Source of the DNA: a candidate division TA06 bacterium
GTDB lineage: Bacteria > Hydrothermota > DG-26 > E44-bin18
Length of the DNA stretch: 57,664 bases
Assembly (NCBI GenBank): GCA_004376575.1
Contig: SOJN01000123.1
Coordinates: 1 to 57,664, forward strand
Reading direction: 5' to 3'
Position numbers and translations under genes: made by a program. Within the stretch, counting starts at the first letter, position 1. The number at the start of each line of letters is the position of its first letter. The notes beneath the pieces are model-generated. The model was not told the origin of the DNA. It made no database searches and saw only the letters and a program-made list of their open reading frames with translations. This document shows positions 2,847 through 37,325 of the stretch, piece by piece.

Positions 2847-4601
2847 CTAATCTGGGGAAAAGAGTATCTTGTGCATCACAGTCTCGCCCCGCTCAAGAGC
2901 CACTCCCTTTTCCCAGGTTGCAGATGAGGGTCCTATCAGCTTGATGAGGTGCTTCCCTGGGAGCAAAGGTATCGGTTTCGTAAGAGGCGTCGTATCCTTG
3001 TACTCCCCATCTATGTACACGTCAGCCCACGGGTGAACCTTCAACATCAAATATCCGAATTCATCTCTAAGACTGATGGAAATCCTCGTCGTTTCACCGC
3101 CAGTCACATTGATGTGTGTGACATAGTCTGGAAACTGAGCGTTAGCCAGGATCAGCTTGTGCCTGCCATGATCCAATCTCAGGAGCCTGTTAAATGGTGT
3201 CGTATCAATCGAGTCGCCGTCGATATGGACAACTGCCCAGGGTGTTACATTTATCTTGACGAAACCAAACCTCTCTTTCGGATGGAGAGTAAACGCAACA
3301 CGAGACGTGTCTGCCTGTTCTATGGACACTTTTTGACCCGTTTCTCCATATCCCTCCCGCAGGAGTACAACCTCATGCTCTCCTGGGGTGAGACCCGCTA
3401 TCAGGGCAGGAGTCCTGGAGTTTTGCGGAGTGCCGTCAACAAAAATGTCTGCCCCGCCAGGCACAGAGGTAACCAGAATGGCTCCCGTCTCCACCTGCAC
3501 AGAAGGTAGTACCATCTCAACACCCTTAGCCGACGTCTCCTCTGTTTCTTCATGCACGGAAGGAGCTTCTATTCCGACCTGAGGCTGAAGCGGATTCAAA
3601 GTATCCACAGGACTTTCGGGTTTGAGTCTGCCCCCAATTATGCCGCCAGCGATCAGAACTGCCGCCAAAGCTGTTAGATAGAGGTATAGCCCTCTACGTT
3701 TTCGGCCTTTGGCAGGGGCGATTGTCAGCACACTTTCTTTCTTGCCACCGAGATAGTCGACCAGAATTCTCTCATCCAGGGTGAAGGCTGACTCGTTGGA
3801 AAACACCTCGAGCTCCTGGCTCAAATCTTCCATGGACTGGTATCTTCTGGCAGGATTCCTATCAACCATTTTGGAAACGATACCAGCAAGTCTTTGAGGA
3901 CAGTCCGGAACAATCTTCTTTATTGGCTCTACATCCTCAGTCAACTTCTTGGTGATAATCGCTGAATAGTTGCTGCCCTCAAAAGGCCTTACTCCCGAGA
4001 GCATCTGGTAAAAGGTGAGGCCAAGTGAATATATGTCCGCCCTGGCGTCAACTTCTTCTCCCTTTATCTGCTCCACGGACATGTAGCTCGGGGTTCCGAA
4101 AAGCTCACCATCAATTGTTATTGAAGGCAGAGCTTCCGAGTACGCAAGTCCAAAATCGGCCACCTTCACAGCACCATCATAGCCCAGAATGATATTCCCA
4201 GGCTTGATGTCTCTATGGACAATCCCCTGGGAGTGGACGAACCCTAGACCCCTGGAGGCCTGAGAGACCACATAGGTTGCCACATCAACAGGCATTCTCT
4301 TCTCTTTGGCCAGGACCTCAGCAAGGCTCAATCCTTCCACAAATTCCATTGCGATATAGTAGAGGCCGTTCGTCTTACCGTAGTCGTAAATATGGGCTAT
4401 TCCGGCGTGTCTTATCTTTGCAACCGCCTTCGCCTCACGGGAGAATCGCTCCACACTCTTGTCATCTTTGGTCAAGGAAGGATGGAGAACCTTGAGCAGA
4501 ACATCTCTGTCAAGTTGGGGCTGACGAGCTCTATAGGTTGTGGCGGCACCACCTTTTGAGAGAACCTCCTTTATCCTGTATTTTCCTATCATCTCGCTCA
4601 T
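2847..4601 (-). CDS. Transmembrane Ser/Thr protein kinase with PEGA repeats
   Basis: 584 aa Hanks-type kinase. Numbered from the chosen start it shows the ATP lysine K37, the HRDIKPGN catalytic loop (D131) and DFG (D149). A single membrane segment (~LYLYLTALAAVLIAGGIIGG) separates the cytoplasmic kinase from three extracytoplasmic PEGA-like repeats (GADIFVDG, WAVVHIDGD, WADVYIDGE). I chose the ATG at 4601 because it overlaps the stop of the upstream sigma-54 activator gene as ATGA, a translational-coupling arrangement; the frame is open to 4622. The kinase may phosphorylate or be functionally paired with that activator, but this is inference from context. Confidence 0.9.
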   Translation of the reverse strand: MSEMIGKYRIKEVLSKGGAATTYRARQPQLDRDVLLKVLHPSLTKDDKSVERFSREAKAVAKIRHAGIAHIYDYGKTNGLYYIAMEFVEGLSLAEVLAKEKRMPVDVATYVVSQASRGLGFVHSQGIVHRDIKPGNIILGYDGAVKVADFGLAYSEALPSITIDGELFGTPSYMSVEQIKGEEVDARADIYSLGLTFYQMLSGVRPFEGSNYSAIITKKLTEDVEPIKKIVPDCPQRLAGIVSKMVDRNPARRYQSMEDLSQELEVFSNESAFTLDERILVDYLGGKKESVLTIAPAKGRKRRGLYLYLTALAAVLIAGGIIGGRLKPESPVDTLNPLQPQVGIEAPSVHEETEETSAKGVEMVLPSVQVETGAILVTSVPGGADIFVDGTPQNSRTPALIAGLTPGEHEVVLLREGYGETGQKVSIEQADTSRVAFTLHPKERFGFVKINVTPWAVVHIDGDSIDTTPFNRLLRLDHGRHKLILANAQFPDYVTHINVTGGETTRISISLRDEFGYLMLKVHPWADVYIDGEYKDTTPLTKPIPLLPGKHLIKLIGPSSATWEKGVALERGETVMHKILFSPD

Positions 4602-21592: not shown

Positions 21593-22636
21593 TTAAGACG
21601 CGACAGATATGCTGCCAGGATGCTGACTCACCACTTCACCAATGATGACCGACACAGCAGTCTCCGGAACAGACTGGAGTGCCTTGAGAAAGAAGTCGGC
21701 TTTGGTCTCATCAACGGCTACCAGAAGTCCCCCGGAGGTCTGAGCATCACAAAGTAGAATCTTCTCTGTTTCACTGACAGAGGAATCAAAATCGACTTTA
21801 GGAGTGATGAAATCGAAGTTTGCTCTTGTTCCACCCGGTACAAAGCCCTTCCCAGCGTAACCTGGGGCCCATTCAAAGAACGGAACCTTTCCCGAAAAGA
21901 TGTTCAAGCCCACATTGCTCTGCTCTGCCATTACAAGAGCATGCCCCATGAGGCCAAAACCTGTCACGTCTGTGCAGGCATCAACCTCCGTCTTCATCAT
22001 CAGTTCTGATGCACGCCGGTTTAGCGTCCTCATGGACTCGTTTATCGCCAGTATAGCCTCTTTTGAGGCCTTCCCTCTTTTCAAAGCTGTTGATATGACA
22101 CCTGTGCCGATCCTTTTAGTCAGAACGAGTACATCCCCGGGCCTGGCACTGGAAGCAGTGACAAGCTTTTCTGTCTCAATAATACCGGACACAGAGAGAC
22201 CATATTTGATTTCTTCGTCCTTGATTGTATGGCCACCAATCATTACGGCACCGGCCTCTCTCACCTTGAAAGCCCCACCTTCCAATATCCTGGTTAGTAT
22301 ATCAATGTCCAGTTTGGTTGGAAAGCCAACTATGTTGAGAACCGTCAGAGGCTTCCCACCCATAGCATACACATCGCTCAAAGAGTTTGCGGCGGCAATC
22401 TCACCGAAGGTGTAAGGGTCATCTGCAATCGGAGTAAGGACATCAACTGTTTGTATGAGAGATCTCTCTTTGTCTATTGAATAGACACCAGCATCCCCCA
22501 CACTGTCTATGCCATAGACTATGTTAGGATGATCCCACACTGTGATCTTCTTGAGGACCTGGACCAGGTCCTTCTGGCAGACCTTGGCGGCTCACCCAGC
22601 AGCTTTGGTCATCGATGTAAGTTTTATCTCATCCAT
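21593..22636 (-). CDS. selD: Selenide, water dikinase, itself a selenoprotein
   Basis: 347 aa with selenocysteine at residue 15. Reading only to the UGA hides the N-terminus: the frame continues in phase from ATG 22636 through TGA at 22592-22594 into the conserved body (start of the body near 22540). The N-terminus is TKAAG-U-AAKV, where other SelDs have Cys or Sec in the glycine-rich loop. The body shows DSVGDAGVYSIDKERS, GGKPLTVLNIVGFP and TDVTGFGLMGHA. It makes selenophosphate from selenide and ATP. A hairpin with loop GGUCC begins 21 nt after the UGA. Gene order selC-DUF3343-yedF-selD supports the call. Confidence 0.95.
22555..22571 (-). promoter_or_regulatory. SECIS-like hairpin of selD
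   Basis: On the mRNA a perfect 6-bp stem GGACCU/AGGUCC closes a GGUCC loop at 27-31 nt after the UGA. The GGUC loop matches the SelB-recognised loop of E. coli fdhF. The same loop recurs at the other three in-frame UGAs in this window. Confidence 0.7.
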
Positions 22637-22637
22637 G

Positions 22638-22979
22638 TCAAACCGTAATCACCTTTGACGCGGCAGTGAATGTCTTGACGATTTCATTCTGATTCGAAAC
22701 TTTGCCGACGCCAAGCTTGTCTTTGATCCTGAAGTAGTCGAGACATGTTCCACACACAAGCAGACCTACGTTCTTCTTTTCCATCTCTTTGAGTATGTCC
22801 AGCACTTCGCTCCCACTTACCGTGAGTTTCACTCCGGAGTTCATGAAAGCGATGTGGGTGGGAAGCGGTTCGACGGCCAGTACATTTGTAAGGAAAGCTT
22901 TCATTAATATCTTGCCAAGCTCATCTTCACCGTGGCCTATCCTGTCCTTGTTGAGGAATACTACATTGCCCACGTTCAT
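22638..22979 (-). CDS. yedF: YedF/DsrE-family selenium metabolism protein
   Basis: 113 aa from the ATG at 22979; the frame is open to 23030 but overlaps the DUF3343 gene. DsrE-like fold: VVFLNKDRIGHGEDELG, THIAFMNSGVKL, and a Cys pair in LLVCGTCLDYF. YedF proteins with only the DsrE half occur beside selD and are thought to handle selenium delivery. Stop is immediately upstream of the selD start. Confidence 0.85.
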   Translation of the reverse strand: MNVGNVVFLNKDRIGHGEDELGKILMKAFLTNVLAVEPLPTHIAFMNSGVKLTVSGSEVLDILKEMEKKNVGLLVCGTCLDYFRIKDKLGVGKVSNQNEIVKTFTAASKVITV

Positions 22980-22983
22980 GCGT

Positions 22984-23208
22984 TCAGCTCTCCACTCTCC
23001 TGACCTTCTTGTGAACAATCCCAGAACCATCCAGAAGTTTGGTCACTTCTTCCAGTCTCTCACAGGGGAAAACCAGCGAAAAACCGCACTCCGGATCCAC
23101 TTCAGGTGGGCTGGAAACCACCCTCACCTCTATCCCATTCTCCCTGACCAGCCACCCCGCTTTTGACACCATCCTGACATCAACGGGAAGATAACATTCT
23201 GTTGCCAT
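22984..23208 (-). CDS. DUF3343 putative Se/S carrier-like protein
   Basis: 74 aa from the ATG at 23208; the longer frame runs through tRNA-Sec and is spurious. DUF3343 pattern: N-terminal hydrophobic strand, then conserved Cys in DPECGFSLVFPCERL, and a C-terminal LDGSGIVHKKV. Proteins of this family co-occur with selD and yedF and are proposed to carry selenium or sulfur on the cysteine. It begins only nine bases after the tRNA-Sec 3' end, so both are probably on one transcript. Confidence 0.85.
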   Translation of the reverse strand: MATECYLPVDVRMVSKAGWLVRENGIEVRVVSSPPEVDPECGFSLVFPCERLEEVTKLLDGSGIVHKKVRRVES

Positions 23209-23217
23209 AACTTTTTG

Positions 23218-23312
23218 TGGCGGAGGCGTGTAGGAATCGAACCTACCAGTCCACAGAGTGCAGACCGACTGGATTTGAAGTCCAGCAGGCACACCAGCAC
23301 CTATCCGCCTCC
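23218..23312 (-). tRNA. selC: tRNA-Sec(UCA)
   Basis: 95 nt including encoded CCA. The anticodon arm CTGGACTTCAAATCCAG is identical to that of E. coli selC, with anticodon UCA. A long variable arm (around TCTGCAC-TCT-GTGGA), T-stem GTAGG/CCTAC and GGAGGCG/CGCCTCC acceptor are present, with discriminator G. Confidence 0.97.
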
Positions 23313-26741: not shown

Positions 26742-28082
26742 TTAAGGGCGGGTGTCTATTCTTATCACGCCGAGATCCACGACAACGTGCTCTGGGTCTA
26801 TTGTTATCTTCCCAGGTGCATTGCTCAGGCTCACTCTCTCCCACGTCGGATAAATCAGCAGCGTATCAGCCATTATTGCAAGAAAGTAGTCATCATCCAC
26901 AAGGTTTTCAAACTTGAAATTGCCATCCTGGTCCGGCTCCGTCCCATCAATTACATATATATCAAGATGCTCCGGCAGAGCCTCCAGATATACTGGTTCG
27001 GTCCTGTACCTCCGTATTCGGCGGTAATCGCGAAGCAGCCCAATTCTTAGCTGCGAAGCAGGATTGCCTTCAACCACGATCGATCCTTGCAGAATCCCAT
27101 CAGTTACCTTTGAGACCGGGAATCTGTACCCAACAGGGTAGCCTTGCTTTTCTGCCCTATCGAACCAGATATCCGCTTTAGCTGAGTCACCCATGTGTGC
27201 GTATATGTTACCCAACCGATAGCAGGCACCGCCTGCGATGAAGTACCTCGCCTCATCAGTGAGCAAGACAAGCATCCTCTTCCTCTCAGGTGTCGGGAGG
27301 ACATGCAGCAAAGACCACAGGAGGTCCGAACACGCCCTGATGTCGTCCCCTTCTTCAAATCTTTGTTGATAGTATCTGAGGAGCGGCGCTATCTGGCAGT
27401 TTTTTTTGTAGTACTGCTCCAAGTACTCATTCATCTGGCCAGCCAGGAAGGTCCTGTAGCTTCTGCTTTCCAGAAGACGATAGGCAGCATCCACACCTGC
27501 CTTGTTCAAAGCCATTGGGTCGAATCTAGACCATCTTGTGTAGAGAAACTCTCTGGCACCTATTCTGTGTTCGTTGTCTCCGAACAAGACGACCGTCTTC
27601 GGGGGTTCCGTTGCCCTGTTCGGTAAATGCAAGATCTCTATCATCTCGTTTTTGTAATCATATCGTTCTAGCCAGAATGCATTGAAGAATGTTGTTGTGA
27701 TAAGGACCATTGCGACTCCTATGCAAAAAGCATAGGCTAGGGATCTGACGCTTCTCCGCCAACCCAGTATGGCAGCCATCCTGTAGAAGAACAGACCGAA
27801 TACGAAGGACGCGACGAGGGTCAGAACGAGGAACCAGATGAAGACCAAGATCATCCAGGGAATGTAGGGCTGATAGCGAAATACCGCAAATTGGTACCAA
27901 TAGGGTCTGTACGACAACAAAAAAAGAAAGAAAATCGCAGCAGTGACAGCTCCAGCTATCCCTCCGTCCCGCAGAAGAGACAGTCGCCCCTTAAAACCGC
28001 TTAAGGATACGGTATTAAGGTCTCCGGCCACACCCCTGTGGCTCCAGATGAACCATAGTCCGCTACCGAAAATCCCGAACAC
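26742..28082 (-). CDS. Membrane protein with TPR-like and beta-sandwich C-terminal domain
   Basis: 446 aa from a GTG at 28082 that lacks a ribosome binding site. Three to four membrane segments lie in the first ~150 residues (GSGLWFIWS; AAIFFLFLLSY; MILVFIWFLVLTLVASFVFG; FCIGVAMVLITTTFF). A soluble part follows with a TPR-like stretch (CYRLGNIYAHMGDSAKADIWFDRAEKQGY-like) and a carboxypeptidase-regulatory-like fold near the end (DQDGNFKFENLVDDDYFL). The frame is hydrophobic further upstream (LIFVIVFGIFGSG), suggesting it may once have been continuous with the preceding gene by a one-base shift near 28110. Function unknown. Confidence 0.6.
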   Translation of the reverse strand: MFGIFGSGLWFIWSHRGVAGDLNTVSLSGFKGRLSLLRDGGIAGAVTAAIFFLFLLSYRPYWYQFAVFRYQPYIPWMILVFIWFLVLTLVASFVFGLFFYRMAAILGWRRSVRSLAYAFCIGVAMVLITTTFFNAFWLERYDYKNEMIEILHLPNRATEPPKTVVLFGDNEHRIGAREFLYTRWSRFDPMALNKAGVDAAYRLLESRSYRTFLAGQMNEYLEQYYKKNCQIAPLLRYYQQRFEEGDDIRACSDLLWSLLHVLPTPERKRMLVLLTDEARYFIAGGACYRLGNIYAHMGDSAKADIWFDRAEKQGYPVGYRFPVSKVTDGILQGSIVVEGNPASQLRIGLLRDYRRIRRYRTEPVYLEALPEHLDIYVIDGTEPDQDGNFKFENLVDDDYFLAIMADTLLIYPTWERVSLSNAPGKITIDPEHVVVDLGVIRIDTRP

Positions 28083-28093
28083 AATGACGAAGA

Positions 28094-28585
28094 TTAACTG
28101 CCCGTGCCAGTATAATATAGTAAATCTTCAACATGCCTGAACCCGAAGAGCCTCATAGTACTGCCGAATAAGAATACAGATAGAATAAGCAAGCCTGCTG
28201 TCAACATTGAGCAGAAGAACACAGTCCACAATGACCTGCTGTGAATAAAAGGCTTGAATCTGAAGTTGGGATTCAGGGTCTTGGCGACTATTACCAACCC
28301 GATGACTGAAAGGACTACGACGGCTATGCCGTACATACCGTTTGGTATTATCCAGAGCCCCCAGGAGACCGGACCGGTCGGGCATGATACCGGCCCTCAG
28401 CCGACAGGAATGCTGAAGATCAATTTCCCAAAGTCGGTGAAAGAGAACAGACCAGCTAATGACTTCGGGATGATATATCCTTCCGAGCGAGGTAGGGTAC
28501 GAGCCATTAGATACGCAGTATGAAGTACCGCCCAGATCCCACCAAGAACTGCAAACACAATCCCCGATTTGATGGACTTTCCCAT
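28094..28585 (-). CDS. Small membrane protein with in-frame UGA, candidate selenoprotein
   Basis: Read through the TGA at 28397-28399, this is a 163-aa protein with about four membrane segments. ATG at 28585 has a strong AGGGGGG seven bases upstream, so translation is real. Residues 1-62 end SIPVG; after the UGA the frame continues GPVSCPTGPVSWGLW, then VVVLSVIGLVIVA and other hydrophobic runs to a TAA at 28094. The motif is U-G-P-V-S-C. A hairpin with stem GACC/GGUC and loop GGUCC sits 18-30 nt after the UGA, the same loop as in selD and hdrA. The alternative is a nonsense-mutated gene, given a possible frameshift near its 3' end. I recognise no family. Confidence 0.6.
28367..28379 (-). promoter_or_regulatory. 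SECIS-like hairpin of the membrane selenoprotein candidate
   Basis: mRNA GACC-GGUCC-GGUC, loop at 22-26 nt after the UGA; GCCC and GGGC can extend the stem across a bulge. Loop sequence equals those at selD and hdrA hairpin 1. Confidence 0.55.
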
Positions 28586-28804
28586 TAAGAACCCCCCTTA
28601 TGGAGTAAGCACACGCCTCCGGAACCCGCAAGAATATCATACTCTACAGACGAATCGCGTCAAACACATTTTGTCCTCTATTTCACTTTTTCGAAAAGGT
28701 GAAAAAGTGGGTGTGTTTGGGAATATTTTGCAGTCCTGCGGTGTAGCACTATATGGACGAGGAAGGACATCACACAGTTCAACTCCTCAAAAGGAGGTGA
28801 AAAG

Positions 28805-29646: not shown

Positions 29647-31512
29647 TCATTTTGAATTCCCGAGCGTAGCGAGCGTGCGGAGGTCCCCTTCTCGCCTTGT
29701 GAATCCTATTCTATCAAGGTATTCGGCAACGGGGACTGCGAACTTTCGGGTGGTCTTGAGAATCTCTTTAATCTCTGTCAGTTTGAGCGGGCCCTTTTTC
29801 TCTACCGCCTTGGCTATCTCTTTCTTCCCCTTTTCCAGAATATCCTTGTGGATGAGAATATCCTGTCTGATTCTCACAAGACTCCCGGAATCAATCAGAG
29901 AATAGAAGAGCTGACTGGAGTACTTTGAGACTACATCATCCTTGGAGGGTGGACTGAAACCACTATCAAGGAAGAACTTCTCGATCTTGCTCCTCTCCTC
30001 GGCCTGTTCATCAGTCAACTCAAGGCTAATCCGAGCCAGCTTCACCCTGTCTCCCACCACCTGAAACTGAGAGCTATTGGTGAGAAACAGATCAAACGTC
30101 TGCGGAGCCATCTTCATTCTGACTCTCAACTCTTCTTTGGACATGCCCTTCTGGAGGGGGTTTTCCTTGTGGTACTTTTCCAGTATACCTGAGGTTCGCT
30201 CTCTTATCTTTTTCAAATATGATTTGTCGAAAAGTATGTCACCCAGCCTCTCCGCCTTCCCCTCCTCTGTAACAACTCCTACCGCCTTGTGAAGCTGCTG
30301 CTCATCTACGTCGATGCTCTTTCTGAGTTCGGCTATGTACACCAATCCTGTGTTGAGATGGGCTGAAAGGATGTTGGATAACTCACCTGATGCCCGGGCT
30401 TCTAGCACATCAAGAACGATCCGATCCGACCGCTTGTGTTTCCTGGGGTTCGAATCCAGTATGATTCCTCCTCCCAGCACCCTCATTGGGGAATAACTGC
30501 GGACCACAAATCTGTCGCCAAATTTGGCAGCGGCCTTCTTCTCGAGTCTCAGCTGCACGTAACCTCTTCCTCCCGGTTCGATCTCTTTCTTGCCAAGAAT
30601 GGCGGTTCTCGCAAGCACCTCTGCACTGCCAAGATACACCTTGACTCTCGTCCAGTCTTTGAGTTGAGGGACATTTTCAAGCAACTCGAGTCTGGTGTCA
30701 AACATCACCGAGGATTCTAAGTACCCAGGTTCAGTTACGATGTCCCCTCTCTGCATCTCATCTTTGCTCACACTGGTCAAATTTAGCGCGACTCTATTCC
30801 CGGCAAGGGCTTCATCTCTCTTTTCATTATGCACATGAATCTGCCTGACACGAGTCTTGATCCCTTTGGGGTAGACGACAAGCTCATCACCCTGAACAAC
30901 TCTCCCACTTGTGAGCGTTCCGGTAACCACAGTTCCCACCCCTTTCAGAACGAATACCCTGTCAATGGGAAGTCTTGCTGGTCTGTCATAGTCTTTCCCC
31001 GGAAAGGATCCCAGTGCAGAGTCAAGCTCTCCCACTAACTGGTCAAGACCAGTGCGGTTCTTGGACGAGATTTTAACAATACGACTGTTTTCAAAGTGGG
31101 TTTTTTCGAGGAGCGTTTCCACATCAAGACCCACCAGTTCTGCCATCTCATCTTCAACGAGGTCACATTTTGTGATTGCTACCACCAACTTCTTCACACC
31201 GAACAGCCTGATTATCTCAAAATGTTCCATTGTTTGGGGCATTACCCCCTCATCCGCCGCTACCACCATGAGAGCGACATCCACTCCGCCCATTCCAGCC
31301 AGCATATTTCGCAGGAAATCTTTGTGACCGGGAACATCAATGAGACCAGCTCTTCCGAACCGGGGAAGATCCAAAGGAGCAAACCCCAGATCAATGGTGA
31401 GGCCCCGCCTCTTCTCCTCTTCCCAGCGGTCCGTATCAACACCGGTGAGAGCCTTGACCAGCTCTGTTTTCCCATGGTCCACGTGACCTGCAGTACCTAC
31501 TATAGCTCCCAT
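29647..31512 (-). CDS. selB: Selenocysteine-specific elongation factor
   Basis: 621 aa, full length. EF-Tu-like GTPase with G1 [12 protein letters not shown]3 DVPGHKDF and G4 TKCD, then three winged-helix domains in the C-terminal third that bind SECIS hairpins ([21 protein letters not shown] region and the C-terminal [19 protein letters not shown]). Delivers Sec-tRNA to UGA codons. Lies six bases downstream of selA on the same strand. Confidence 0.97.
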
Positions 31513-31518
31513 TGGATT

Positions 31519-32904
31519 TTACGCCATAATCGACTTGAAAATGGCAATCAGAGGCTTTTCATCTTCAGGCAAGATCGTCCTCATGTCCAGATTAACCATG
31601 TCCTCGGATACGGTGGCGATGACCGGGGGATCCTGCTTCCTCAACAGTTTCGCGAGCTTCTGTGCAGAGTATTTCTTTGACTTTATCCCAATAGCCCAGG
31701 ATGGAATCTTCAAGCCTGGACAGCTGCCGCCGCCAACCGCCGCTGAAGATTCGACAATGCTGATTTCGCACCCCTCTATCCTCTCCAACTGTCTTTGTAC
31801 TTTTTGAGCTCTTCTCTTGATGGTTGGGGCAGCAAGCATGATCATAAGTAGATGTGGGATCTCTCCCATAGGTGCATCTGAATAAAGGTAGATGGCAAGA
31901 GTCGCAGTCAGGGCAGACAGGGTGAGTTTGTCCACCCTGAGGGCCCTCATCAATGGATTCGACCTTAGCTCCTCTATCAATTTTCTCTTGCCAAGTATGA
32001 TGCCGCACTGAGGTCCACCCAGAAGTTTGTCTCCACTGAATGTCACAAGGTCCATGCCTGCCTTGACAGCCTGTTGCACAGTAGGTTCATCAAGCCCAAA
32101 CATGGAAAGATCAACAAGGAGACCACTTCCAATATCTTCCATGCAGATTATCTTGTGCTTTCTTGCGAGCTTGACGAGCTCCCGGGGTTCTGGCTTGTGC
32201 ACAAAACCTATTACTCTATAGTTGGAAGTATGACTCTTGAGAAGAATGGCAGTCTTTTCCGTGATCGCCTTCTCGTAGTCAGCAATGTAGGTTCTATTTG
32301 TGGTGCCGATCTCAACAAGCCTCGCACCACTCTTCTTCAGAACATCAGGAAGTCTGAAACTTCCGCCTATCTCTATCAGTTCGCCTCTGGAAACTATCAC
32401 CTCCTTGCGCTTCGCAAACGTGTCAAGAACAAGAAGCACTGCAGCGGCGTTATTGTTAACAACCAGTGCAGATTTCGTACCCGTCAGCTTGCAGAGCGCA
32501 TCCTCGACGTGGACATCTCTGCGTCCTCGCTCCCCCTTTTCCAGATCAAACTCCAGATTCGAGTACCCCGGGGAGATTCTGTCCAGTTTCGCAAGCGCAA
32601 GGTCGCTCAACGGGGCTCGCCCCAGGTTTGTATTCAAGATTATGCCAGTACCGTTTATGACCCTGGTGAAACTGCCTTCTACCCTGGATCGTGCTAAAGT
32701 CAAAGCTTCCTCGATGAAGATGTCCTCAGTGAGATTTGCTTCATCAACCTTCTCGCGCTTGATATTCTGCCTCCAGGATCCAGCAGTCTCCCTCATACAC
32801 TCGACAACAAGCTTTCTCGGGTACTTCCTGAACGATTTACGGACAGATTCCTTCCCAAGAAGTCTGTCGATCGATGGGATCAGTCTGAACGGTTCTTTGG
32901 ACAT
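31519..32904 (-). CDS. selA: L-seryl-tRNA(Sec) selenium transferase
   Basis: 461 aa. PLP enzyme with the lysine in FSGDKLLGGPQCGI, N-terminal helical domain (LIPSIDRLLGKE), and NTNLGRAPLS. Converts Ser-tRNA(Sec) to Sec-tRNA(Sec) with selenophosphate. The start has no clear ribosome binding site and lies only ~3 nt after the predicted transcription start, so the mRNA may be nearly leaderless. Confidence 0.96.
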   Translation of the reverse strand: MSKEPFRLIPSIDRLLGKESVRKSFRKYPRKLVVECMRETAGSWRQNIKREKVDEANLTEDIFIEEALTLARSRVEGSFTRVINGTGIILNTNLGRAPLSDLALAKLDRISPGYSNLEFDLEKGERGRRDVHVEDALCKLTGTKSALVVNNNAAAVLLVLDTFAKRKEVIVSRGELIEIGGSFRLPDVLKKSGARLVEIGTTNRTYIADYEKAITEKTAILLKSHTSNYRVIGFVHKPEPRELVKLARKHKIICMEDIGSGLLVDLSMFGLDEPTVQQAVKAGMDLVTFSGDKLLGGPQCGIILGKRKLIEELRSNPLMRALRVDKLTLSALTATLAIYLYSDAPMGEIPHLLMIMLAAPTIKRRAQKVQRQLERIEGCEISIVESSAAVGGGSCPGLKIPSWAIGIKSKKYSAQKLAKLLRKQDPPVIATVSEDMVNLDMRTILPEDEKPLIAIFKSIMA

Positions 32905-33038: not shown

Positions 33039-33890
33039 CTAATGCTTTTTCAGGGCACTTGCCACCGCATTTGGAAAAACCCCAAATGCCCGGGCAACTT
33101 GAGATATAGAAAAGTGGTAATCGTCTACGAGAATCCTAAAGGCTTCGTGACGGAGTTTTCGTTGGACTCTCCCCCTGGGATTTAAAACAAGCTCAGACGT
33201 CACACCCAATTGACGGCTAACAGCCACTATCAAGTTCTTAACATCAAGATTCCGTTCTTTCGCACGGCACTTCGACACTTCAACAAACTCAACAAATTCG
33301 TCATCCCCTATTACTGATTCGCGTGTTTCAGTCCAATTGACTGGGCCATCATTTTCACTCTGGGCAAATTGTTTGTATCGCCGACGACCCACCTTGCCTC
33401 GGCCAAACTGATCAAGAATAACCCCGGGTTTGACGAATCCCTTGGGAACAAGCCTGAGGTAGTCACCATAGCTTGTCCATTTGTAGTCCTTGGGATCAGA
33501 CACCAGGCCAGCCTCCACCGCTTGCCGATGAATATAGCGCGACAACCACACACCATAGCTGTCCGATTGAACAATCTTGTTCTTGAAGCGTTCACCAAAT
33601 ACGTGTCCAACTCTACCGGTCACCCTATTGAAAAACTGAGCGTAATCACCGTGCAATCTGTCCATAAACTCCGACAACCGTGCGTGCCAATCAAGCAGAA
33701 ATAGATGAATATGCCAGTCCATCAGACCGTATGCGATTATATGGATTTCACAGAGGGAGCCGTAGAGTTCCAAATACTTAAGGTACTTTTCAAAATGGGC
33801 ATCCGCCTTGAAGACCGGGTGTCGATCGTTTCCCCAGGCATAGACGTGATGATATAGTCCCTCACCTATCAGTCGGGGTCTTCGTGCCAC
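33039..33890 (-). CDS. REP-associated tyrosine transposase (Y1/IS200-like)
   Basis: 283 aa from the GTG at 33890 (MARRPRLIGEGLYHHV, the usual family start); an upstream GTG at 33926 adds 12 residues. HUH motif HIH within the DWHIHLFLL sequence, GHVFGERFKN, and the catalytic Tyr in SRYIHRQAVEAGLV. A C-terminal helix-turn-helix (DYHFSISQVARAFGVF) resembles DnaA domain-like tails of RAYTs. Such proteins cleave single-stranded REP hairpins and disperse them. Frame appears intact. Confidence 0.88.
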   Translation of the reverse strand: MARRPRLIGEGLYHHVYAWGNDRHPVFKADAHFEKYLKYLELYGSLCEIHIIAYGLMDWHIHLFLLDWHARLSEFMDRLHGDYAQFFNRVTGRVGHVFGERFKNKIVQSDSYGVWLSRYIHRQAVEAGLVSDPKDYKWTSYGDYLRLVPKGFVKPGVILDQFGRGKVGRRRYKQFAQSENDGPVNWTETRESVIGDDEFVEFVEVSKCRAKERNLDVKNLIVAVSRQLGVTSELVLNPRGRVQRKLRHEAFRILVDDYHFSISQVARAFGVFPNAVASALKKH

Positions 33891-34088
33891 TATGCTTTTC
33901 TGAATTCGGTCTTGGTCACAGCTCACAACTTTCGGATGGCAAGTTACAGAAGCCGACGCCCACCCTACAATCTACGCAAACTTCGTGCCGGCCCATCTGT
34001 TCATATACAAGATTCTCTTTAACTCGAAGAGTTTCTTGAGCTTAGCATTGCAGCATCGAACTGGCTTTGATTCTGCCACGCCGAAAAA

Positions 34089-34862: not shown

Positions 34863-37325
34863 TTATGTTACTGCAGCCGCTGTCGTTTTCTTTGCCCTCT
34901 TTGCCTTTTTCTTCTGCCTTTTCTCCTCCTGTTCAGTCAGAACCTTTACCGTGTATTCGACCTCTTCTTTGGTGACTGTCTTGCGCAGTTCCTCCATTTC
35001 GCGCATAGTTCTCGCCCACTTCTGAGCCTCTGCTGCGCTTATCCACTCCAGTTGAAGCCTCTCTGGTCTGATCCCCCATTTCTCCAGCTTGTCCCAGAGC
35101 TTCTCCACTCTCTTCTGAGTCCACCTGTTCGCGTCGATGTAGTGGCAGTCAGCGAAATGACAGCCTGATACTAGCACAACCGGCGCTCCTTTCCTGAAGG
35201 CGCGCAAGATGAACTCATCAGACACTCTCCCAGAGCACATCGTCCTTATTACCCTCCCACTGGAAGGATACTGAAGCCTCGAGAGCCCAGCAAGGTCGGC
35301 GCCAGCATAAGAACACCAGTTGCAGGCAAAAACAATCACCTTATCCATGGGATCCTCTGCAAGATATGCGTCGACCATCCCGTCTATCTGATCATCAGAG
35401 AAATGACGCATGGTGATCGCCTCAAACGGGCACTCAGCAGCGCATGTACCGCACCCCTTGCACGCAGCCTCAACCACCTCCGCAGGCGTCTTAGCCTTTG
35501 TATCTGCACCTATGGCACCGTAAGGACAGACCTTCGAACAGATGACGCATGAACTGCACAGATCCTCGTCAACCCAGGCAGTGATGGCCTCTATCTTTAT
35601 CCTGCCCGCAGACAGAATCGTCTCAGCTCTTGCAGCAGCGCCGCTTGCCTGAGTTACGCTGTCTTTCACATCTTTGGGAGCCTCAGAACAACCGGCGAGA
35701 AAAACTCCTCCTGTAGGTGCGTCTATCGGCTTCAGTTTGGGGTGTTGCTCCATGTAAAACCCATCGCTCGTTCTGGAGAGGGTAAGCAGCCTCTGGACGT
35801 GATCTGAATCCAGCCTTGGAGTGACCCCCACAGAAAGGACCAGAACTCCCACTTCGTGTTCCTCCACCTCTCCTGTCGTTGTGTTCTCCACGGTCAGAAT
35901 AAGATTCCTCGTTTCGGGATCTTCCCTAATCTGCCCGGGTATCCCTCTGATGTATTGAACACCCGCTTCCATACTTCTCCTGTAGAGGTCCTCAAAACCC
36001 TTACCGAATGTCCGCATGTCCATGTAGAAGACCTTGGCCACCATGTCTGGGTAGTGTTCCCTCAGGAAAAGAGTATCCTTGACGGTATTCATACAACATA
36101 TGTTGCTGCAATATGGGTTGCCTCTCTTCAGGTCTCTGGAGCCAACGCACTGTATGAACCCAATTGACTTGGGAACTTCCATGTCGGAAGGTCTCACCAG
36201 ATGTCCCTCACTCACGTATCCAGGACCGGTAAGAATCTCAAACTCCATGCTTGTCAGAACATTCTGGTATCTCGTATATCCGAACTCATCGTATTTTCTC
36301 GGATCAAAAACATCCACGCCTGTGGCCACAATCACAGTTCCCACATCGAATTCAACAATCTTATCCTGCATGTCGTAGTCTATGCACTTCTTCTCACAGA
36401 CTTCGAGACACTTCCCGCAGGCTATGGGATTGTTCCCCAGGCAGTCCTCCATATTGAGAACATACGAGGACGGAACTGCTTGCGCAAACGGCATGTATAT
36501 GGCTTTTCTCACTGCAAGGCCGCATTGATGCTCATCCACGACTGTTACCGGGCATACCTTCTCGCACTCGGTACAGGCGTTGCAGTCTTCCTCGTAAACA
36601 TATCTGGCCTTTTTTCTGACCTTCACGTGGAAGTTGCCAATATATCCAGATATATCCTCGATTTCGCTGTAGGTCAGGAGCTTAATCTTGGGATGTCGAC
36701 CGACATCCATCATCCTCGGACCGAGGATTCATATTGCTCAGTCCATTGTCGGGTAGGTCTTGTTTAGCTGAGACATCAACCCACCAATGGATGGCTCCTT
36801 CTCTACCAGGTATACAGGATATCCCGAATCAGCCAGGTCGAGAGATGCCTGTATCCCTGCTATGCCTCCGCCGATAACCAGCGCAGCTCTCGTGACTGGA
36901 ACCTCAAGCTCATCCTGAGGTTCAAGCCTGGCTCCACGAGCCACCGCGGCCGCAATCAGGTCCTCAGCCTTTTTCGTCGCGTTTTTCTTGTCCGCGCTAT
37001 GAACCCACGAGCAATGCTCCCTGATATTCGCCATCTCCATCAGATAGGGATTCAGACCCGCATCGCTTACACAGGCTCTGAACGTCGGCTCGTGCATCCT
37101 GGGAGTGCAGGAAGCGACAACAACCCTGTTGAGCTTGTTGTCGACAACGTACTGCTTGATCTCCTGCTGCCCGGGCTCGGCACAGGTATACTTATTCTTC
37201 ACTGCGCAAACAACGCCTGGCAGGTTCTTGGCGTGCTCGACTAATTCATCGCAGTCGACTGACCCGGCGATGTTTTGCCCGCATTCGCAGACGAATACAC
37301 CAATACGAAGGTCATCCTTCTCCAA
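34863..37325 (-). CDS. hdrA: HdrA-MvhD fusion selenoprotein with two in-frame UGAs (UxxU)
   Basis: 820 aa when read through TGA at 36738-36740 (U196) and 36729-36731 (U199). The two halves are in one frame with no other stop. The junction reads KTYPTMD-U-AI-U-ILGPRM, matching the conserved D-C-x-x-C-I-L of HdrA, so both cysteines are replaced by UGA. N-terminal CECG, FAD motif VIGGGIAGIQAS, two 4Fe-4S sites (CNACTECEKVCP; CSSCVICSKVCP; CKGCGTCAAECP), and a C-terminal MvhD-like domain (FACNWCSYAGADLAG, GCHFADCHY). TTG start with GGAGG eight bases upstream; a GTG at 37334 is less well placed. Electron-bifurcating flavin core for the Hdr/Kor operon. Confidence 0.93.
36691..36708 (-). promoter_or_regulatory. 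SECIS-like hairpin 2 of hdrA
   Basis: mRNA GGAUGUC-GGUC-GACAUCC: a perfect 7-bp stem and GGUC loop at 28-31 nt after the second UGA. Confidence 0.7.
36714..36726 (-). promoter_or_regulatory. SECIS-like hairpin 1 of hdrA
   Basis: mRNA CCUC-GGUCC-GAGG with the loop 16-20 nt after the first UGA (7-11 nt after the second). It starts 11 nt after the first UGA, as in E. coli fdhF. Confidence 0.65.

Follow-up and report, generated by a model that had tools for sequence, protein, structure and literature searches.

The window, a stretch of 57,664 nucleotides, carries on its minus strand a reading frame that begins with an ATG at 28585, preceded on sequence inspection by a strong Shine-Dalgarno-like sequence (AAGGGGGG, 28592–28599). 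The first 62 codons (28400–28585) encode a predicted transmembrane helix and lead to an in-frame TGA as codon 63 (28397–28399), beyond which a further 100 codons stay open in phase (28094–28396), encode two more predicted transmembrane helices and end at a TAA at 28094. The motif U-G-P-V-S-C is present at the UGA. A sequence-only reading had proposed this frame as a new selenoprotein, a small membrane protein, and its descriptions of the ribosome binding site, of the motif and of the 100 hydrophobic residues following the in-phase TGA (in fact two hydrophobic stretches) were borne out. Translation, alignment and profiles all showed that the UGA is flanked by coding sequence. An overlapping ORF of 170 aa (28128–28640) was rejected as a real gene, as it had no family match and its frame was outscored by the UGA frame in both halves by coding score. 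Codon usage stood at the 1st percentile (atypical) for the 62 codons leading up to the UGA and at the 10th percentile (low) for the 100 that follow. Single-sequence folds of the gene were of low confidence (pLDDT 55 and 42), that of the N-terminal part being modelled as three long helices, residue 63 falling in a loop of low confidence. Searches with the 163-aa reading found no match in Pfam, NCBIfam or PDB, and the short reading gave only chance matches among phylum genomes, viral contigs and GTDB contigs. In one scan of the genome_contigs collection with the N-terminal part, the sole match was a chance one to an asparagine synthase.

The remainder of the same gene was located by homologue and profile matches further along the minus strand, as an ORF of 446 aa from its first GTG (26742–28082, open from 28127) with further helices and a soluble C-terminal part. 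This ORF matched proteins in one genome of the same class (G002, E 2.1e-12) and one of the same phylum (G093, E 1.2e-10). Both homologues are single proteins (G002:C70, locus L008, 573 aa; G093:C170, locus L009, 568 aa) that reach about 120 residues beyond the 446-aa ORF N-terminally, and this extension aligns with the window upstream as well as downstream of the UGA; the shared residues include KSxxxxxxxAVxG in helix 1, ahead of the UGA, and, beyond it, xLNPxFxFxxF past helix 2. The window gene resembles the two homologues in being collinear over its full length, in carrying LNPxFxF after the second helix (within 28094–28396) and in the conserved C-terminal FxFEN...YFLAxM. It differs in sharing just 23–26 % identity, in an insert, some 18 residues long, that adjoins the UGA, and in a frameshift, whilst the G002 copy has a difference of its own, a TGA at codon 27.

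For a non-circular test, profiles were built solely from the two homologues and searched against 41,030 six-frame segments covering 1.76 Mb of the genome; all genome-wide counts given here span the same 1.76 of 3.0 Mb, about 59 % of the genome. Both N-terminal profiles placed the segment after the UGA (28396–28097) at the top (E 0.22 and 0.65), and the segment before it (28597–28400) came fourth (E 3.1) when the profile spanned the first 62 columns. The best match of the full two-homologue profile was the segment in the −1 frame (28127–26745, E 8.6e-12). Each N-terminal match is weak by itself; jointly they are adjacent and in the correct order and spacing, with a chance on rank only of about 4 in 41,030. 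Adjacent and ordered matches of this kind indicate that the pieces belong to one gene and that the frame reading through the UGA is its true frame. Since the homologues are single proteins that match both pieces, the window holds one collinear gene of about 610 codons, cut by a UGA and by a −1 frameshift. By these alignments the proposed small protein is the first 150 or so residues encoded by a larger gene whose remainder lies in a different frame, and the earlier description of it as a small membrane protein is not supported.

The coding frame moves by −1 in the zone 28094–28127. The N-terminal frame stops at the TAA at 28094, and the rest of the gene lies in the −1 frame, which is open only from 28127 and, by its sequence, offers no ATG, GTG or TTG before the GTG at 28082. 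That GTG has no Shine-Dalgarno sequence and cuts a fourth hydrophobic stretch (QLIFVIVFGIFGSGLWFIW), which begins upstream in the −1 frame. A programmed −1 slip was rejected, no X XXY YYZ heptamer being seen by eye in 28094–28127. A coding-model scan of the 1.76 Mb found 58 frame changes, nearly all of them neighbouring gene pairs with a start codon, and just one in which both parts exceeded 60 codons and the overlap held no start codon. Such start-less frame changes are rare in this genome, and a frameshift arising by accident in a working gene is therefore unlikely. The scan is of limited sensitivity, as it also missed the frameshift of the window gene, the N-terminal part of which has a weak score. 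Relative to the intact gene of G093, the window gene shows both a UGA and a frameshift, and it lacks the otherwise intact frame expected of a selenoprotein gene. Elsewhere in the genome, the scan contained one clear case of a probable true frameshift, in a gene for a small exported protein (L044, about 8182 of the reverse complement, minus strand).

The membrane family itself is uncharacterized, with some six or more hydrophobic helices ahead of a soluble C-terminal part, and was assigned to no named family; TPR and transthyretin-like matches in the 446-aa part were weak and below the cut-off. A role in the cell envelope is a guess. The family was found in three of 147 phylum genomes and was absent from the other 144, and a search of viral contigs and plasmids found none. 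A tRNA-Sec is present in all three genomes that carry the family.

The organism is equipped for selenocysteine, as indicated by a tRNA-Sec in the window (23222–23312, minus strand), selD with its own Sec UGA (22592–22594, minus strand), ORFs read from their translations as selB (29647–31512, minus strand) and selA (31519–32904, minus strand), and the UGAs of hdrA. The last gene, also on the minus strand, has two in-frame UGAs (36738–36740 and 36729–36731) in the sequence PTMD-U-AI-U-ILGP, its UxxU taking the place of the CxxC of HdrA. Two or more TGAs are present in the HdrA homologue of at least seven other phylum genomes. On contig C40 of the same genome (L053), an mvhD-like gene and a second hdrA lie adjacent, with UGAs at 858–860 and 1914–1916 in the sequences FLCTW-U-GYRAADLAG and NDCAM-U-IMSP, respectively. 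All four authentic sites of the genome (selD, hdrA, the mvhD-like gene and the second hdrA) are followed by a hairpin with a GGU apex.

Past the UGA of the window gene lies a SECIS-like hairpin, GACCG-GUC-CGGUC (28367–28379, minus strand), 13 bases long and 18–30 nt downstream. Both this hairpin and the likeness of its loop to those of selD and hdrA had been noted from the sequence, and both observations stand, the GGUCC apex being present in each of the two genes of the window. As in the authentic genes, the GGU apex falls 16–27 nt past the UGA; unlike the window gene, selD, hdrA and the mvhD-like gene belong to known Sec families, with the UGA at an established Sec position, and their stems are longer or extended. 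The hairpin has an energy of −4.9 kcal/mol alone and −9.3 kcal/mol with the flanking CCC/GGG and dangling bases. A more stable rival hairpin, GGGCCGGU...ACCGGUCC (28371–28396, minus strand), begins at the first nucleotide past the UGA, and in naked RNA its pairing probability is about 0.83, against 0.14 for the SECIS-like hairpin, which is not part of the minimum-energy fold. The rival makes use of nt 1–8 past the UGA, which a decoding ribosome would be expected to cover, melting the GGGCCGGU/ACCGGUCC pairing.

The bSECIS model calls for a stem of 4–16 bp, a loop of 3–9 nt with a G early in it (PMC13188914, Fig. 2A), a distance of 16–37 nt from the UGA and an energy of at most −7.5 (PMC13188914). 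With its flanks (−9.3), the window hairpin satisfies this model. The gene resembles bacterial selenoprotein genes with a bSECIS in its in-frame UGA, 5-bp stem, 3-nt loop with G first, spacing of about 22 nt between UGA and hairpin, extended energy of −9.3 kcal/mol and Sec-decoding genome, but differs in having no Cys/Sec pair, no second organism with a UGA at the site and a frameshift downstream. About 9.5 % of 4,000 random TGAs in the genome also satisfy the model, and 5 % score as well as the window site. The apex is more discriminating: a GGU-apex hairpin follows 296 of 67,337 TGAs (0.44 %) and a GGTCC apex 15 (0.022 %) in the 1.76 Mb. Synonymous recoding of the same residues gave an equally good GGU-apex hairpin in 0.9 % of cases (p 0.009; authentic sites 0.4–2 %) and a hairpin of equal strength with any loop in 41 %. 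Other SelD genes of the phylum carry, after their UGA, SECIS-like stems that are just 4 bp long, with energies near −4.9 kcal/mol, so a weak stem alone cannot dismiss the window hairpin. We judge the hairpin to be evidence for selenocysteine by a factor of between 10 and 100. A repeat or REP-type element was rejected as its source, the region being unique in the 1.76 Mb; a RAYT-like (REP-associated) transposase, recognized by eye, lies nearby and adjoins selA (33039–33926, minus strand).

The homologues offer no parallel for the UGA. Opposite residue 63 the alignment places Thr (G002) and Val (G093). The insert of about 18 residues (within GPVSCPTGPVSWGLWIIPN) follows directly in the window gene, and this region, which bears the U and the C, is missing from both homologues. 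Neither a Cys-bearing homologue, for which the sequence-only reading had advised a search, nor a conserved UGA was found elsewhere; the family numbers only these two homologues, with none further in the 147 phylum genomes. The same reading had held that random residues at the UGA with no constraint downstream would count against it, and here the evidence divides: the residues at the site are unrelated, but the downstream sequence is common to the homologues. Codons near the UGA form a loose repeat in the sequence (PVG-TGA, PVS-TGC, PVS-TGG), from which the UGA could derive from Cys or Trp by one change. The G002 copy (minus-strand gene starting at 3216) has its in-frame TGA at codon 27 in an otherwise intact gene, where the G093 copy has Trp, and no hairpin follows that TGA (−2.4 kcal/mol), although G002 has a tRNA-Sec. 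This TGA suggests a family prone to loss; with it, two of three known family members have early UGAs at different sites. Reading of UGA as Trp, considered solely through the Trp-to-TGA change in G002, gained no further support.

On balance we favour, with moderate confidence, a recently disrupted gene of an uncharacterized multi-pass membrane family of about 610 residues; the weight given to this and to the competing explanations is a matter of judgement and not a computed posterior. Under this explanation the UGA at 28397–28399 would stop translation after 62 residues, the −1 frameshift between 28127 and 28094 would part the third helix from the fourth, both changes would be real mutations inactivating the gene, and the SECIS-like hairpin would be a coincidence of the GPVSCPTGPVSW codons. 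Any decay would be recent, since the 446-codon part has typical synonymous codon usage (50th percentile) and no other stop. Against disruption stand the low background of GGU-apex hairpins, their rarity on recoding and the fact that the organism makes selenoproteins.

These same points, together with the fit of the hairpin to the bSECIS model, the GGUCC apex it shares with selD and hdrA, phylum SelD stems that are equally weak and a tRNA-Sec in every genome with the family, are what sustain the strongest competitor, a true selenoprotein in which SelB with Sec-tRNA decodes the UGA via the hairpin at 28367–28379. We regard this as unlikely, if still the most serious of the alternatives. U63 and C68, both in the loop that joins helices 1 and 2, would then act as a redox pair, and the frameshift would reflect misassembly, a mutation acquired later or the splitting of the gene to give two proteins. 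The fuller proposal of a new kind of selenoprotein, a multi-pass membrane protein with U-x4-C between helices 1 and 2 and a frame change due to assembly error or a recent split, is a shade less probable again. The earlier claim of a new selenoprotein survives in part. The frame does run through the UGA, in a Sec-decoding organism and with the SECIS apex of the lineage at a permitted distance. The claim is opposed by the second lesion, the share of TGAs (about 9.5 %) that satisfy the bSECIS model, Thr and Val at the site with no Cys homologue in the genomes searched, the absence of the insert bearing the U and C from both homologues, the frequency of any-loop hairpins on recoding, the absence of the gene from most of the phylum, and the related copy with an unrelated, hairpin-less UGA.

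An assembly or consensus error, whereby one or both disruptions are absent from the living genome, seems improbable. The genome is assembled in 150 contigs, a single-base change would account for each lesion, and the G002 copy, too, is intact but for a single TGA. However, no other gene in the window looks frameshifted from its ORFs, start-less frameshifts are rare genome-wide, and the other in-frame TGAs recognized in window genes belong to authentic Sec genes. Gene fission into two working proteins, the first terminating after residue 62 or at the TAA at 28094 and the second starting from the GTG at 28082 or a later one, is very improbable: both pieces are long and open and a GGAG lies some 10 nt ahead of a later in-frame GTG, but there is no ATG start and the GTG at 28082 lacks a Shine-Dalgarno sequence and would truncate a hydrophobic stretch.

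As a broken gene the locus is ordinary, yet it is a useful caution for selenoprotein calling. Since about one TGA in ten in this genome passes the published SECIS model, an in-frame UGA with flanking coding sequence and a model-conforming hairpin is insufficient for a selenoprotein call even in a Sec-decoding genome. If the Sec reading were true, an integral membrane family would be added to the bacterial selenoproteome.

Two further observations concern selenium genes in the phylum. The SelD genes of other phylum families (L183, L185, L186 and L188) have a SECIS-like hairpin whose 4-bp GCGC stem is topped by AGUUG or AGUUA, and these divergent apices suggest that SelB specificity differs within the phylum. 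Between the tRNA-Sec and selD of the window lies a gene for a DsrE-like protein (22638–23030, minus strand) that may handle selenium; its Pfam DsrE match (E 2.2e-4) falls just short of the cut-off.
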